Assembly (NCBI GenBank): GCA_030616165.1
Contig: JAUWXV010000032.1
Span: 1-22,707 of the forward strand
Direction of reading: 5' to 3'
DNA length: 22,707 nt
From: a bacterium
GTDB lineage: Bacteria; SM23-31; JAUVVT01
Of this stretch, positions 1 through 5,763 are shown piece by piece. A model generated the notes under the pieces. It was not told the origin of the DNA. It ran no database searches and was given only the letters and a program-made list of their open reading frames with translations. Position 1 is the stretch's first letter, and every line of letters begins with the position of its first letter. Made by a program: the position numbers and the translations under genes.

Positions 1-743
1 ATTGATTTGGCAATGCATAAAATATCGGGATAAACATTATGATGTTGATACGCAAACATCTTCCCGGTTCTGCCGAATCCGGTCTGGATTTCATCAAATA
101 TTAAAATTAATCCCTTTTCATCGCAAATCTTGCGCAGGCTTAAGAAATAGTCTTTATTGCCAATATGAATACCTCCCTCTCCCTGAACTATCTCAATTAT
201 AACTCCTGCAGTGTTTTCATTTATCTTTTCGGCTATTGCTTCAATGTTATTATAAGGAACATGATAAAAACCGGGCACCAAAGGCATAAAAGGTTTTCGG
301 AATTTTTCAGCCCATGTTGCGCTCAAAGCACCAAAAGTTCTCCCATGAAAACTCCTGTTCGCAGCGATAAATTCTGTTTTCCCGGTTGCAAGTCTTGCAA
401 ACTTCAATGCGCCTTCAACTGCTTCTGTTCCAGAATTGCAGAAAAAAAATCTATTTATATTTTCAGGAGTAATGTCGTCAAGTTTTTTCATTAACTCCGC
501 ACGTTTATCATTATAAAACACCGAAGGACAGGTAATTAATTTATTTGCCTGTTCATTAATAGCCTTTATTACATACGGATTAGCATGTCCTATATTTGCA
601 ACACCAAACCCAGCCACGCAGTCAATGTATCTTTCACCATTCTCATCCCAAACTATCGCACCTTCTCCCCTGACAATCGCAATATCCCTCATCGGGTAAC
701 ATCCAGGCGAGTATCTGCTTTCAATTTCAATTATTCTTGACAT
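1..743 (-). CDS. lysJ: LysW-dependent / acetylornithine aminotransferase, 3' end missing
   Basis: Class III PLP-dependent aminotransferase that makes the terminal amino group of lysine or ornithine on the LysW-bound (or N-acetyl) semialdehyde, using glutamate as donor. About 247 residues are visible and the gene runs off the left edge. The phosphate-binding NSGTEA motif lies near residues 103-108, a GEGG motif follows, and FDEIQTGFGRTG carries the PLP-binding Asp near residue 217. The Schiff-base lysine lies beyond the edge. The ATG at 743 is preceded by AAGGA seven bases upstream. It is the last visible gene of the lysX-lysW-argX-lysY-lysZ series, 128 bp after lysZ; that gap is almost entirely hairpin repeat. 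The family assignment is secure. LysJ rather than ArgD is inferred from the LysW context, and it may serve both lysine and arginine. Confidence 0.9.
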   Translation of the reverse strand, partial: MSRIIEIESRYSPGCYPMRDIAIVRGEGAIVWDENGERYIDCVAGFGVANIGHANPYVIKAINEQANKLITCPSVFYNDKRAELMKKLDDITPENINRFFFCNSGTEAVEGALKFARLATGKTEFIAANRSFHGRTFGALSATWAEKFRKPFMPLVPGFYHVPYNNIEAIAEKINENTAGVIIEIVQGEGGIHIGNKDYFLSLRKICDEKGLILIFDEIQTGFGRTGKMFAYQHHNVYPDILCIAKS

Positions 744-871: not shown

Positions 872-1678
872 TCAATTTATCACTGTTCCTTTGGCATTCA
901 GGGCATTCGTTACTGGATTTTTTATTCTTGCATCGGCGAAAATCACTTCTTTTACGCCGCCTTCAACGGCTTCAGCGGTACCCATTATCTTTTTCTTCAT
1001 TCTTCTCTTTGCAAACTCCATAAATTCAGATACCTTGCTTCTATCTATATGTTTTATAAGACTTGATTCATCTTCGACATTTTTAAGAAGTCCCGGCACA
1101 TTGGAAAGGATTATTAGTTTATCAGCGTTTAGTTTCACCGCTAGTAATGCGGCAGCCCTGTCCCCGTCAACGTTTATAGCCTCTCCTTCATAACTTGAAC
1201 ATAAAGGGGAAATGACTGGAAGATATCCATTATTTATCAGAAGCATTAACAAATCAATATTAACCTTTTCCACCTTTCCAGTGTTATCCCCGCGGAGAAC
1301 CTTTTTCTTTCCGCCTTCTATTATTTTTAAGGTAGACTTCTTCTGTCCCTCCAGAAGTCTGCCGTCGATTCCTGATAAACCAACAGCGTTTATTCCAAGT
1401 TTTTGAAACTTTTCAACTATAAATTTGTTTACTTTTCCCGAATAAACCATAGCGAAAATTTCCAGAGTCTCCCTGTCAGTATATCTGCTTTCATATCCAG
1501 AAACCGAGGTAACAAACCTTGGCGGTTTTCCGAGTTTTTCAGATAAAACATTCGCCTCATGAGACCCTCCGTGAACAAGAACAATCTTTACGCCTCTCTT
1601 TATTATTCCCGCGATATCTTCACAGATATAGTCGTAATTTATTCCTTCTCCTCCACCAACCTTGATAACGAGCATCAT
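872..1678 (-). CDS. lysZ: LysW-aminoadipate / LysW-glutamate kinase (acetylglutamate kinase family)
   Basis: Amino acid kinase that phosphorylates the side-chain carboxylate of aminoadipate or glutamate attached to LysW; the family also includes acetylglutamate kinase ArgB. The 268-aa length is typical. Visible motifs are KVGGGEGIN near the N-terminus, LVHGGSHEAN near residue 35, PPRFVT and YTDRETLEIF, and GLSGIDGRLL and VDGDRAAALLA further on. From memory these match Thermus LysZ (PRFLT, SRLTDRKTLEIF, GLSGLDGRLF) better than classical ArgB, which supports LysW-bound substrates. The protein starts MM: AAGG lies 4 nt before the first ATG and 7 nt before the second (1675), so 1675 may be the true start. 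It lies 163 bp downstream of lysY. Only one kinase gene is visible, so it may handle both pathways. Confidence 0.92.
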   Translation of the reverse strand: MMLVIKVGGGEGINYDYICEDIAGIIKRGVKIVLVHGGSHEANVLSEKLGKPPRFVTSVSGYESRYTDRETLEIFAMVYSGKVNKFIVEKFQKLGINAVGLSGIDGRLLEGQKKSTLKIIEGGKKKVLRGDNTGKVEKVNIDLLMLLINNGYLPVISPLCSSYEGEAINVDGDRAAALLAVKLNADKLIILSNVPGLLKNVEDESSLIKHIDRSKVSEFMEFAKRRMKKKIMGTAEAVEGGVKEVIFADARIKNPVTNALNAKGTVIN

Positions 1679-1841: not shown

Positions 1842-2882
1842 TCAAATAGGGTGGAGGCCCGGGAATTCAAGTCCTTTATTTTCATCGAAACCGCACATAA
1901 CATTCATAGACTGAATTCCGTTGCCTGCGGCACCTTTCATCAAGTTATCTATCGCCGACATAACCACAAGCCAGTTAGAGTGTTCATCTTTCTCAAAACC
2001 TATATCACAGTAATTTGACCCTGTTAAAATTTTCGGTTCGGGATACCTGTACAAACCTTTCTTTTCTTTGACAATTCTAATAAACGGTTCATTCCCGTAT
2101 TCTTTTCTGTATATGCTCCAAATATCCTTCTCGGTCAAATCGCTATTTACCGAACAGTGGCATGTAGCAAGAAGCCCCCTTACCGCTTCTATAGAGGTTG
2201 CAGAAAACCTTATTTTTGGTATATTACCATTAAAAGTGAGTTCCTGGACGATTTCGGGAGTATGTCTGTGTCCTGTCGGCTGATACGACCGAATAACACC
2301 ACTCCTCTCCGGATGATGAGTCGAAGGATGACTTTTATTCCCTCCTGCTGAGGAACCCACTTTAGCCTCTATCGTGATTTCATTTTTCCCAACTAATCCA
2401 TTTTTCATCAAGGGCATCAATGCAAGAATAGATGCCGTTGAAAGACATCCTGCTCCAGTAACATAATTACTTTTTTTTATTTCTTCACGATGAAGTTCTG
2501 GTATTCCATAAACAAACTTTTTGAGGAGTTCGGGATTAGGATGAGGTTTGCCATAGTAAATCACGTAATCTTCCGGATTATGCAGTCTGAAATCTGCGCT
2601 TAAATCAATAATCTTTGGAGCAATCGATAAAAACTTATCTATCATACTTGCAGAACTTCCGTGTGGAAGTGCCAAAAACAAAAAATCACATTCTTTAATA
2701 TCATTTACACTAACAAATTTCAGAAGAGACCTCTTTCTGAGATTGGGATGGACGGAATGAACATACCTTCCTGCGTAAGTCTCGGAAGTTATTTGAAAAA
2801 CCTCCACTTCTGGATGGTCAATCAGAAGTCTCAGCGCTTCTCCTCCCACATAACCTGAAGCACCTATAATGGATACTTTCAT
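1842..2882 (-). CDS. lysY: LysW-aminoadipyl-/glutamyl-phosphate reductase (ArgC family)
   Basis: NADPH-dependent reductase that turns the acyl-phosphate on LysW-bound aminoadipate (or glutamate) into the semialdehyde; the family includes N-acetyl-glutamyl-phosphate reductase ArgC. The 346-aa length is usual. The N-terminal dinucleotide-binding motif GASGYVGGE lies at residues 7-15. The catalytic cysteine is C146 in GAGCLSTAS. The conserved segments IIDLSADFRL (91-100) and AGGNKSHPSTHHPE are present. The start codon overlaps the argX stop by four bases (ATGA), implying translational coupling and one operon. The coupling, plus lysW two genes upstream, favours LysW-bound substrates over N-acetyl substrates. 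One copy next to two ligases suggests a shared lysine/ornithine enzyme. Confidence 0.92.
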   Translation of the reverse strand: MKVSIIGASGYVGGEALRLLIDHPEVEVFQITSETYAGRYVHSVHPNLRKRSLLKFVSVNDIKECDFLFLALPHGSSASMIDKFLSIAPKIIDLSADFRLHNPEDYVIYYGKPHPNPELLKKFVYGIPELHREEIKKSNYVTGAGCLSTASILALMPLMKNGLVGKNEITIEAKVGSSAGGNKSHPSTHHPERSGVIRSYQPTGHRHTPEIVQELTFNGNIPKIRFSATSIEAVRGLLATCHCSVNSDLTEKDIWSIYRKEYGNEPFIRIVKEKKGLYRYPEPKILTGSNYCDIGFEKDEHSNWLVVMSAIDNLMKGAAGNGIQSMNVMCGFDENKGLEFPGLHPI

Positions 2883-3718
2883 TTTTTTGCCACCTCCATT
2901 GCATAATCAACCATCATTCCAGCAATATCTACTCCGGTTGTTTCGTGTAAAAGTTTGAATTCCGGAGTGTAATTAATTTCTATAACAAGATATTTATCTT
3001 TATCTTCAAGGATATCCACAGCAAGAATTCCACCTCCTACAGCCTCTGCTGCTTTCAGCGAGAGTTCTTCAATTTCGCTTGTAACAGTAAAAGCCTCTGC
3101 TGTAGCACCTCTTGAGGCATTAGTAAGCCAGTGAGATGATTTCCGATAGATGGCAGTTGCTATTTTATCCCCAATAACCAATACTCTTATATCTCTTCCC
3201 GGCTTATCAATATACTTTTGAATATAGAAGGAAGAGTGATGATAAGTCCCGAGAGTTTTTTTATGCTCAACCAACCCTTCTGCGGCTTCGCGGTCATTAA
3301 CCTTACTTATTAATCGCCCCCAAGAACCTATTGCCGGCTTGAGAACTACGGGGTAATCCATCTCTTCTATCGCCTTTAGAGCCGATTCAGGACTGTATGC
3401 TATCATCGTGTGGGGCATTGGGATTCCTTTACTGACTAATACTGAAGTGGTGAGCGATTTATCACCACAAATATTTGCAACTTTCCAATTATTTACTGTT
3501 TTTATACCCCAATCATTAAATATCTTGAGACACTGAAGAGAACGAGTGTGGCTTATTGACCTGTCAAGAATTAAATCATAAGATGTATTATCCCTCTGAT
3601 AATCAAGGATTATCTCATTATCATAAATCTTATCAAACTTGATATTCCTTGCCTGCAAAGCCTCAAAAATCTTCTTTTCTTCAAACCTCACGTATGATAC
3701 AAGTATCCCAAATTTCAT
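2879..3718 (-). CDS. argX: LysX-family ATP-grasp ligase, probable glutamate-LysW ligase
   Basis: ATP-grasp ligase (RimK/LysX family, 279 aa) that joins an amino acid through its amino group to the C-terminal glutamate of LysW. It aligns without gaps to the lysX product at 4424-5275 over most of its length, including VVLKPAIGSWGRL (124-136), GRDIRV and GGGILAVDIL. It differs where substrate choice is expected: NASRGATAEAF (200-210) against [11 protein letters not shown], and IEINYTPEFKLL (246-257) against [12 protein letters not shown]. The other paralog matches Thermus LysX as I remember it, so this one is inferred to be ArgX, acting on glutamate for arginine. It could instead be a divergent LysX. 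It overlaps lysY by 4 bp. No clear Shine-Dalgarno site precedes the ATG, and its first codons are duplicated 99 bp upstream. Confidence 0.75.
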   Translation of the reverse strand: MKFGILVSYVRFEEKKIFEALQARNIKFDKIYDNEIILDYQRDNTSYDLILDRSISHTRSLQCLKIFNDWGIKTVNNWKVANICGDKSLTTSVLVSKGIPMPHTMIAYSPESALKAIEEMDYPVVLKPAIGSWGRLISKVNDREAAEGLVEHKKTLGTYHHSSFYIQKYIDKPGRDIRVLVIGDKIATAIYRKSSHWLTNASRGATAEAFTVTSEIEELSLKAAEAVGGGILAVDILEDKDKYLVIEINYTPEFKLLHETTGVDIAGMMVDYAMEVAKK

Positions 3719-3903: not shown

Positions 3904-4068
3904 TTACTCACCCCAATCTTCTTCTTCTTTTGGGGCGGGAGCGAGTTCAATAGGATCGATGCTTACTACTTCCAGTTCGATTCCACATTCAGGACATTCA
4001 ATAATTTCACCTTCTTCTGTATCTTCAGGTATATCAATATTACCCTCACATACTATACATGCTGCCAT
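3904..4068 (-). CDS. lysW: LysW amino-group carrier protein
   Basis: Small acidic carrier protein of 54 aa. Its C-terminal glutamate is linked to the amino group of aminoadipate or glutamate, shielding it while kinase, reductase and aminotransferase act. The sequence shows a zinc-ribbon-like pair, C4-X2-C7 and C25-X2-C28, and the block [15 protein letters not shown]. The terminal EDWGE (50-54) is the LysW hallmark with the acceptor Glu last. The ATG at 4068 has GGAGG nine bases upstream. It lies between the two ligase genes, which supports both ligases using this carrier. Length and motifs match Thermus LysW as remembered. It is shorter than usual gene-calling cut-offs and easily missed. Confidence 0.95.
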
Positions 4069-4423
4069 TTTTCTTAACCTCCGCTTTTTTAATTAAACCT
4101 ACTTTCTTTTGAAAAAGAAAGTAGGCATAGAAAACTTTCTAATATTTCTAATGAATCCCGAATATTCAGGATGAATTAGTGATCAGACAGACAGGAATGT
4201 CTGTCCTACTAAATATATGTGAAAGTGACTATTTTTCAAACTTTACATCTGTGATTGGACAGACCCCAAGGCAAGCCCACAGGGCAGGCAGGAATGTCTG
4301 TCCTACTAAATATATGTGAAAGTGACTATTTTTCAAACTTTACATCTGTGATTGGACAAACCCCAAGGCAAGCCCACAGGGCAGGCAGGAATGTCTGTCC
4401 TATTAAATATATGATGAAATTGA
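4069..4423. other. lysX-lysW spacer, repeat-filled
   Basis: This 355-bp gap within the putative operon contains the lysW ribosome-binding site (GGAGG near 4078), composite hairpin copy 4 and most of the 97-bp tandem repeat. I see no additional gene, promoter or terminator in it. Confidence 0.7.
4098..4179. repeat. Composite hairpin repeat, copy 4
   Basis: Module A (4098-4125) is a 28-bp palindrome with CCTACTTTCTTTT arms. The linker GCATAGAAAACTTTCT follows. Module C (4148-4179) has outer arms CTAAT / ATTAG and inner arms based on ATCC / GGAT. The element sits just upstream of lysW, so it would be transcribed in the lysX-lysW spacer. Confidence 0.8.
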
Positions 4424-4448
4424 TTATTTTTCAAACTTTCCCTCTGCG
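4187..4448. repeat. 97-bp tandem repeat reaching into the lysX 3' end
   Basis: About 2.7 copies of a 97-bp unit. CTGTCCTACTAAATATATG begins at 4201 and 4298, and a one-base variant begins at 4395. Each unit carries the block CACAGGGCAGGCAGGAATG (degenerate in the first copy) and ends with TTTTTCAAACTTT. On the minus strand that last block encodes the final lysX residues (KFEK) before the stop. The copy at about 4424-4445 is the real gene end; the copies farther from lysX are non-coding versions of it. A 16-nt stretch, CTGCCTGCCCTGTGGG, also occurs at 14834-14849 in reverse complement of the unit. Confidence 0.85.
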
Positions 4449-5275
4449 ACTTCAATAACATAGTCGATTATCTTTGCAGGTATGTCGACACCTGTGACCT
4501 TAATACTATTCCTGAATTCCATAGTGTAATTTACTTCGTTTACAAGATATCCGTCAGGAGTTTCAAAAATATCAAGTGCCACAACACCTCCACCAACTGC
4601 TTTTGCGCCACGAATAGAGATATCATTCAACTCATCAGTAATTGGACAGTTAGAAGTTATTCCTCCTCTTGCAGTATTTGTTATCCAGTGCGGTGAACTT
4701 CGGTATATTGCAGCAATGGTTTTATCTCCGACCACGAAACTCCTTATATCTCTGCCGTTTTTAGGAATATACTCCTGAATGTAGAAAACAGAATGATGAT
4801 ATGAGCCGAGAGTAGTCTTATGTTCAAGCACGGTTTCAGCAGCATCTCTATCATTAATTTTTCCTAAAAGTCTTCCCCAAGAACCCACAGCAGGCTTAAG
4901 AACAACTGGATATCCAAACTCTTCAATTGCTTTTAGTGCGCTCTCAGGAGTATAAGCAATTTTTGTTTTTGGTATCGGAACATTATGCTTGGAAAGGGCG
5001 GCTGTCGTCAGAAGTTTATTACCGCAGGTATTTGCAACCTCATAACTATTTATCGTTTTTATTCCCCAATCATTCATCAGTTTCAATGTGTATAACGCCC
5101 GTGAATGGTTTATGCACCGCTCTAAAACTGCATCATAATGTTCCATCTTATTATCATAATCGAGAATTATCTCACGAACATCTACCTTTTCGTAATCAAT
5201 TCCTCTCTTTTTTAATTCAGCAAAAAGAAGTTTTTCTTCTTTTCTTATTATTGAACACAAAGCACAGATTTTCAT
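4424..5275 (-). CDS. lysX: Alpha-aminoadipate-LysW ligase LysX
   Basis: ATP-grasp ligase (283 aa) that couples alpha-aminoadipate to the C-terminal glutamate of LysW, the entry step of the AAA lysine pathway. The ATP-grasp core [13 protein letters not shown] lies at residues 124-136. The substrate-region motif [10 protein letters not shown] lies at 196-205 and [12 protein letters not shown] at 246-257, followed by TGVDIP. These blocks agree with Thermus LysX as I recall it. The start at 5275 has AAAGGG eight bases upstream. It is the first gene after the 5735-5763 promoter and the terminated leader. A paralog lies two genes downstream (2879-3718), with lysW between them. The last codons coincide with the unit of the 97-bp tandem repeat, so the C-terminal KFEK tail may have been shaped by that repeat. 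Confidence 0.92.
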
Positions 5276-5331
5276 TTTTTAGCCCTTTAAAACTAATAAC
5301 AAAATTCAAGTAAATTTTTATTTTTTTATCT

Positions 5332-5446
5332 GCTTTCTTTTTAAAAAGAAAGTATGTTCCGCCAGGGCGGCTCCCCCGAGTATTCGGGGGAAAAGAAAAC
5401 TTGCTAATATTTCTAATTCATCCCGATTCTTCGGGGTGAATTAAGA
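5332..5446. repeat. Composite hairpin repeat, copy 5, with inserted GC-rich module B
   Basis: Module A (5332-5354) is followed by an extra GC-rich module B (5355-5391) absent from most copies. B consists of the small palindrome CCGCCAGGGCGG and the 18-bp palindrome CCCCCGAGTATTCGGGGG. The usual linker AAAAGAAAACTTGCT resumes after it. Module C (about 5410-5446) has inner arms TCATCCCGA / TCGGGGTGA. It lies between the leader terminator and lysX. Confidence 0.8.
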
Positions 5447-5557
5447 ATGATTAAACTTTACCTCTATTGAGAAGTGAAAACAAAGGCTTATAACATTTTT
5501 TGTAAATTATTCGAAAATCATTAAAGTTTTGACTAATAAAACAAGATGCTTATTAAC

Positions 5558-5600
5558 AAAAAAAAACCCGCCAATTTTAATCTTTCAAATCTGGCGGGTT
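5558..5600 (-). terminator. Rho-independent terminator of the lysX leader
   Basis: On the minus strand the arms AACCCGCCA (5600-5592) and TGGCGGGTT (5573-5565) form a perfect 9-bp stem. The last two stem bases continue into a run of nine Ts (5566-5558). Orientation and T-run fit termination of minus-strand transcription about 170 nt after the promoter at 5735-5763 and before lysX. Confidence 0.85.
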
Positions 5601-5728
5601 GAAGTAGTTTTTATATAAATATATAAAAACATACCTTTCTCAGCCAGTTCCAATATGTTTGAACCTCCTGAAAAGAATGTAATATTTTAACAGCTGAGAT
5701 TTATTACCCATGATTAACCTCGATTTAG
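5558..5728 (-). ncRNA. Candidate leader RNA / attenuator or small RNA upstream of lysX
   Basis: The segment between a near-consensus promoter and a strong terminator should give a transcript of about 170 nt. It contains a 7-bp long-range pairing (TCTCAGC 5699-5693 with GCTGAGA 5644-5638) and a perfect AT hairpin (GTTTTTATATA arms, about 5630-5607) just before the terminator. It also has two short frames. Frame 1 (5711-5640) is 23 codons with GAGG before the ATG and tandem Arg codons AGG AGG. Frame 2 (5653-5585) starts at TTG ten bases after a perfect AGGAGG, and its last codons lie in the first terminator arm. This geometry fits translation-linked attenuation of the lysine operon. A free small RNA such as a 6S-like RNA is an alternative. 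I recognise no known riboswitch consensus. Confidence 0.5.
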
Positions 5729-5734
5729 CTTACT

Positions 5735-5763
5735 AATATAATATATTTTTTTCTTTTTGTCAA
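5735..5763 (-). promoter_or_regulatory. Sigma70-type promoter for leader/lysX operon
   Basis: On the minus strand, TTGACA (5763-5758, perfect -35) is followed after exactly 17 nt by TATATT (5740-5735, five of six matches to the -10). Transcription should start near 5728. It lies just downstream of the yraN stop codon and reads toward the leader and lysX. Confidence 0.8.

Follow-up and report, generated by a model that had tools for sequence, protein, structure and literature searches.

Gene organization of the locus

The window analysed here, that is, the whole stretch of 22,707 nucleotides of contig JAUWXV010000032.1, contains a LysW-dependent arginine/lysine gene cluster encoded on the minus strand, and ahead of it a structured leader on the same strand. 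The cluster and the spacer that precedes it comprise the following features:

5301..5464, minus strand: dispersed multicopy repeat, part of the gap between the leader terminator and lysX
4424..5275, minus strand: lysX, first gene downstream of the leader, LysW ligase with a TtLysX-like EFRNS signature
3904..4068, minus strand: lysW, 54-aa carrier protein with C-terminal EDWGE
2879..3718, minus strand: second LysX-family ligase, possibly ArgX, with EFKLL at the signature
1842..2882, minus strand: argC/lysY
872..1678, minus strand: lysZ, [LysW]-aminoadipate kinase family
3..743, minus strand: lysJ/argD aminotransferase, truncated where the contig stops

Two LysX-family ligases (window positions 5275-4424 and 3718-2879) are hence encoded around one lysW. 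The logic by which the signature position distinguishes LysX from ArgX has been published (PMC10433800); its location in both ligases is our own reading of the alignments. The leader terminator and lysX are 282 nt apart. When this spacer was used as query, 66 matches were obtained in the genome to which the window belongs, most of them inside query positions 94-257. A+T-rich dispersed intergenic repeats with hairpins are present at window positions 5464-5301, 4229-4414 and 3890-3859, and on many other contigs. A scan of 4.5 kb listed no minus-strand terminator between that of the leader and lysX, and no promoter better than 9/12 was found in this interval.

A promoter, a short leader ORF and a terminator ahead of lysX

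The leader region contains the following elements:

5763-5758, minus strand: -35 hexamer TTGACA, a perfect match
5740-5735, minus strand: -10 hexamer TATATT, 17 nt from the -35 hexamer
about 5728-5558, minus strand: predicted terminated leader transcript of about 171 nt
5718..5721, minus strand: Shine-Dalgarno sequence GAGG of ORF1, 6 nt ahead of its ATG
5711-5640, minus strand: ORF1, ATG start, 23-aa leader peptide MGNKSQLLKYYILFRRFKHIGTG followed by the stop codon
5658..5669, minus strand: proposed control codons AGG AGG TTC AAA (Arg15 Arg16 Phe17 Lys18)
5558..5600, minus strand: intrinsic terminator, arms 5600-5591 and 5574-5565 plus T tract

The preliminary description of this DNA had reported a perfect -35 hexamer, a 17-nt spacer and a good -10 hexamer. 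All of these are present; the promoter matches at 11 of 12 positions and ranks first among the 25 promoter-like sites of the 4.5 kb scanned. A promoter of similar shape and sequence precedes rplU in the nearest relative (G001, locus L101), and this type of promoter is therefore normal in the lineage. The transcript of roughly 170 nt that had been proposed to end at the terminator agrees with our prediction, to which we add the strand, left unstated at the time. Likewise, the terminator with nine Ts was recovered, these nine including the last bases of the stem. With a predicted stem of 10 bp followed by a T tract, and located ahead of structural genes, it has the form and position expected in an attenuator.

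The leader RNA folds with a z-score of -4.3, and none of 200 shuffled sequences folded as well. Three hairpins make up the predicted fold (5699-5638, 5636-5602 and the terminator, 5600-5565). A comparison with Rfam, suggested earlier because of 6S RNA and riboswitches, gave no match at the gathering score to these or to small RNA families; the best weak match of the leader was to PyrR, with 25.6 bits against a cut-off of 54. We consequently discarded 6S RNA, riboswitches and other Rfam families as its identity. The leader is single-copy, as no further copies were found in its own genome. When the 1.04 Mb of that genome, window included, were scanned for a promoter, a Shine-Dalgarno sequence with a short ORF, a terminator and a downstream gene, this site alone was returned; no other convincing leader was found in the 1.04 Mb, and none of this kind was seen ahead of the genome's own hisG, trpE and argG.

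ORF1 is a translatable short frame near the 5' end of the transcript, some 17 nt separating the predicted transcript start from its ATG. Its adjacent Arg codons AGG AGG (5669-5664), which had already been noticed to overlap an AGGAGG motif, are codons 15 and 16; AAA codons for lysine occur at positions 4, 9 and 18. The two Arg codons and the last Lys codon lie 9, 8 and 6 codons ahead of the stop. At least two control codons for an amino acid of the pathway are thus available, a modest number for an attenuator. Lysine and arginine account for 5 of the 23 codons, an overall content which is not significant (P 0.13), and a long run is absent; from codon usage, at least three of these residues within four codons have a chance of 0.007. 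A Shine-Dalgarno sequence followed by an ATG-initiated ORF of 12-35 aa appeared in 1.6% of 5,000 dinucleotide shuffles of the leader. When at least three Lys/Arg codons at positions -9 to -6 were demanded as well, a test of placement that was chosen after the data had been seen, the proportion fell to 0.02% of the 5,000 shuffles.

Predicted mutually exclusive folds of the leader

Folds were computed on the RNA left free by the ribosome, before the 3' arm of the terminator is made. The elements considered, together with a second short frame, are:

5638..5699, minus strand: hairpin 1:2, arms 5699-5689 and 5649-5638, -16.3 kcal/mol
5643..5653, minus strand: predicted antiterminator 5' strand UUGGAACUGGC, immediately ahead of the ORF1 stop codon
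5602..5636, minus strand: A+U-rich hairpin within the antiterminator, with a counterpart in the his leader of G001
5584..5595, minus strand: predicted antiterminator 3' strand GCCAGAUUUGAA, overlapping the 5' arm and the loop of the terminator
5653-5585, minus strand: ORF2, TTG start, AGGAGG upstream, ending in the 5' half of the terminator

With a ribosome placed at Arg15/Arg16, UUGGAACUGGC is predicted to pair with GCCAGAUUUGAA in such a way that the A+U hairpin is enclosed (-19.8 kcal/mol, on the partial transcript). With the ribosome placed at the ORF1 stop codon the antiterminator is lost (-5.0 kcal/mol) and the terminator can then form. The predicted folds accordingly contain an antiterminator that excludes the terminator, that is freed by stalling and that is blocked at the stop. 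Taken by itself, the antiterminator surpasses shuffled strands only to a modest degree, 7.5% of them being as good, and for this reason we rely on the layout and on the analogues described below.

We consider it likely that this RNA acts in the classical manner, as a ribosome-mediated transcription attenuator controlling the arginine/lysine cluster that depends on LysW. RNA polymerase would start at about 5728, followed by a ribosome on ORF1. Should tRNA charged with arginine, and perhaps that charged with lysine, be scarce, the ribosome would stall on AGG AGG (and AAA), leaving UUGGAACUGGC free to pair with GCCAGAUUUGAA and to enclose the A+U hairpin. As this pairing would consume the 5' arm of the terminator, transcription would continue into lysX. 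With the amino acid in plentiful supply, the ribosome would reach the stop codon and cover UUGGAACUGGC, the terminator would form and an RNA of about 171 nt would be released. If ORF1 were not translated, hairpin 1:2 would hide the antiterminator strand, making termination the default. Stalling, arginine as the main signal and read-through reaching lysX are what we infer; target and sensed amino acid are to be taken in this sense, since the exact leader was detected in none of the relatives and dispersed repeats occupy part of the gap ahead of lysX.

A different route to read-through had been put forward in the preliminary description, namely that ribosomes translating ORF2 occlude the 5' arm of the terminator. 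The frame itself was found as reported, with AGGAGG ahead of its TTG and its end within the first terminator arm. Nevertheless, it starts with TTG, its apparent Shine-Dalgarno sequence is explained by Arg codons 15 and 16 of ORF1, no frame of this type was noticed among the His, Trp, Arg and Lys leaders inspected in relatives and in other phyla, and occlusion by ORF2 offers no link to amino acid supply. We regard ORF2 as a real frame that is probably incidental, and control through its translation as highly improbable when compared with stalling on ORF1.

Related leaders in the phylum

The phylum was sampled with six genomes, that of the window and five others. None of the relatives was found to carry the exact leader, and a DNA search of the family and the order with the leader gave as sole match the promoter ahead of rplU. 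The only relative that has lysX is G003, and its lysW-lysX genes lack a leader. Conservation at the same gene was hence not observed; for attenuators, it constitutes supporting evidence and not a strict requirement. The comparison with related genomes that had been suggested as a check detected this leader nowhere else ahead of lysX, and revealed analogues at other genes: the same layout recurs in relatives ahead of hisG, trpE and argG.

A covariance model built from this leader alone retrieved one further convincing site, the hisG leader of G001 (L118:566-780; E 8e-4). Like the leader ahead of lysX, it comprises a promoter of this kind and a terminator, and its peptide, MKNIYFTHIYIHFHYWYWNHKSRGLP, includes four His codons. 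Its predicted antiterminator, GGUCUGC:GCAGACC, encloses a similar middle hairpin, and the strand ends close to the stop codon. Plain His-run leaders precede hisG in G003 (L144), G004 (L143) and G005 (L142), which brings the genomes with a His leader ahead of hisG to four. Trp leader peptides with WWW/WW runs are located ahead of trpE in G005 (L238) and G004 (L240). Ahead of argG of G004 (L237) there is an Arg-rich leader (IRRFRR), reading MKIINSENIRRFRRNSLRGRK..., with a terminator after it; the peptide echoes LFRRFKH of the window peptide, and the leader lacks a strong predicted antiterminator.

The preliminary description had also considered a stand-alone small RNA, in which case lysX would merely be the next gene, with a weak promoter of its own. 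A strong promoter, a terminator and a stable fold are what such a gene would have, the 282-nt gap holds dispersed repeats, and the leader is not conserved beside lysX in G003. The leader nonetheless carries a Shine-Dalgarno-led ORF with control codons at the position expected in an attenuator, and its predicted folds toggle at the stop codon. Moreover, the position of the related leaders ahead of hisG, trpE and argG marks them as cis elements, no Rfam small RNA family matches at the gathering score, and nothing between the terminator and lysX scores above 9/12 as a promoter. We therefore judge a stand-alone small RNA to be unlikely, and less likely than an attenuator.

Leader peptides ahead of LysW-type clusters in other phyla

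We then considered 80 lysX loci from other lineages. In at least 14 or so of them, mostly from Chloroflexota, a Lys/Arg-rich leader peptide and then a terminator precede the lysine cluster. Loci with such leaders are L044, L055, L057, L060, L061, L062 and L065; further ones are L067, L072, L084, L090, L093, L094 and L095. The commonest form in Chloroflexota is SKQxKRxKKPxxRSG followed by the stop codon, SKQLKRVKKPAFRSG being an example of these conserved K-rich peptides, and in most of these leaders KK sits 8-7 codons ahead of the stop. A hairpin lies within the predicted antiterminator, GGUCUGGUUAGC:GCUCACCAGACC. Immediately downstream follows a gene with the length of homocitrate synthase, the family being confirmed for L060 only. 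One pair of the terminator helix varies in a compensatory manner (UA to GC in 5 of 11); no such variation was found in the antiterminator, the strands of which are too conserved to be informative.

A bacterium of KSB1 (L038:5555-5762) has a Lys/Arg-rich leader ORF, an antiterminator and a terminator directly ahead of lysW-lysX. The antiterminator predicted there is strong with the ribosome stalled (-39 to -44) and amounts to little once the ribosome occupies the stop codon (-5.1).

Taken together, the architecture, the position of the control codons and the analogues in relatives and in other phyla support the attenuator reading of the window leader.

The amino acid that may be sensed

Both arginine and lysine are possible products of the cluster, and we therefore favour arginine as the more likely signal, with lysine as a possible second one. 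For the speF ORF34 leader, a pair of adjacent Arg codons is all that is needed to sense arginine (PMC6386406).

An attenuator working as proposed but responding to lysine, through the AAA codons 4, 9 and 18, would be in keeping with the Lys-rich leaders of the LysW clusters of Chloroflexota and KSB1, with the TtLysX-like character of the first gene of the cluster, and with a homocitrate-synthase-like gene in the same genome, which scores below the curated cut-off. Against it, the only tandem control codons are those for arginine, and the sole Lys codon of the control region is AAA, a frequent codon that accounts for 326 of the 443 Lys codons counted here. The genome encodes in addition a LysA-DapF fusion of 709 aa (diaminopimelate decarboxylase plus epimerase; L232:1489-3618, G000:C42), which implies lysine synthesis by the DAP route; two lysine routes may thus coexist in this genome. 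We consider sensing of lysine in place of arginine rather doubtful. It is no more than tentatively that we propose, with similar reserve, a single attenuator that would sense both amino acids through its mixed codons (AGG AGG, AAA) and co-ordinate two ligases, one of each type, that share a single LysW.

Comparison with known systems

A survey published in 2010 described regular leader-peptide attenuators as known solely in Proteobacteria and Actinobacteria, apart from the Firmicutes cases that it added itself (PMC2965389), and genes for lysine and arginine have usually been associated with riboswitches and T-boxes (PMC1262725). A sparsely sampled phylum now offers leaders for His, Trp and Arg/Lys, and Lys-rich ones occur at LysW-type clusters elsewhere; these sequences suggest that the LysW pathway is widely controlled by leader peptides. 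The window leader looks functional, and what is new here is probably the locus, in a poorly sampled lineage, and not the mechanism. The undescribed attenuator of a lysine/arginine cluster suggested in the preliminary description is thus supported as a probable attenuator by its architecture, control codons and analogues, whereas "undescribed" is true for the locus only, the kind of mechanism being classical.

With the trp and his operons of E. coli and Salmonella (PMC1183508) the leader shares a promoter, an ORF with control codons, an intrinsic terminator and a biosynthetic cluster downstream as the presumed target, as well as the alternative hairpins 1:2, 2:3 and 3:4, here as predicted. Unlike these attenuators, it has only two or three control codons, for arginine and lysine, and a long, repeat-bearing spacer. 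Like ORF1, the short frame of the speF ORF34 leader (PMC6386406) has two Arg codons side by side, but this leader acts through Rho termination, translation and RNase G decay on a catabolic gene, and not through an intrinsic terminator of a biosynthetic cluster.

The Chloroflexota and KSB1 leaders belong to the same pathway and share with the window leader the terminator, the enclosed hairpin, an antiterminator strand around the stop codon and, in most of them, a K/R cluster shortly ahead of the stop. They differ in being richer in lysine and in GC, and the gene that they precede is usually not lysX but one as long as homocitrate synthase. Leader-peptide attenuation has also reportedly been described, by Tsubouchi et al. 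in J Biol Chem in 2005, for the lysine cluster of Thermus thermophilus. In that organism, which belongs to a different phylum, a leader peptide and a terminator are likewise said to lie ahead of a LysW-type lysine cluster.
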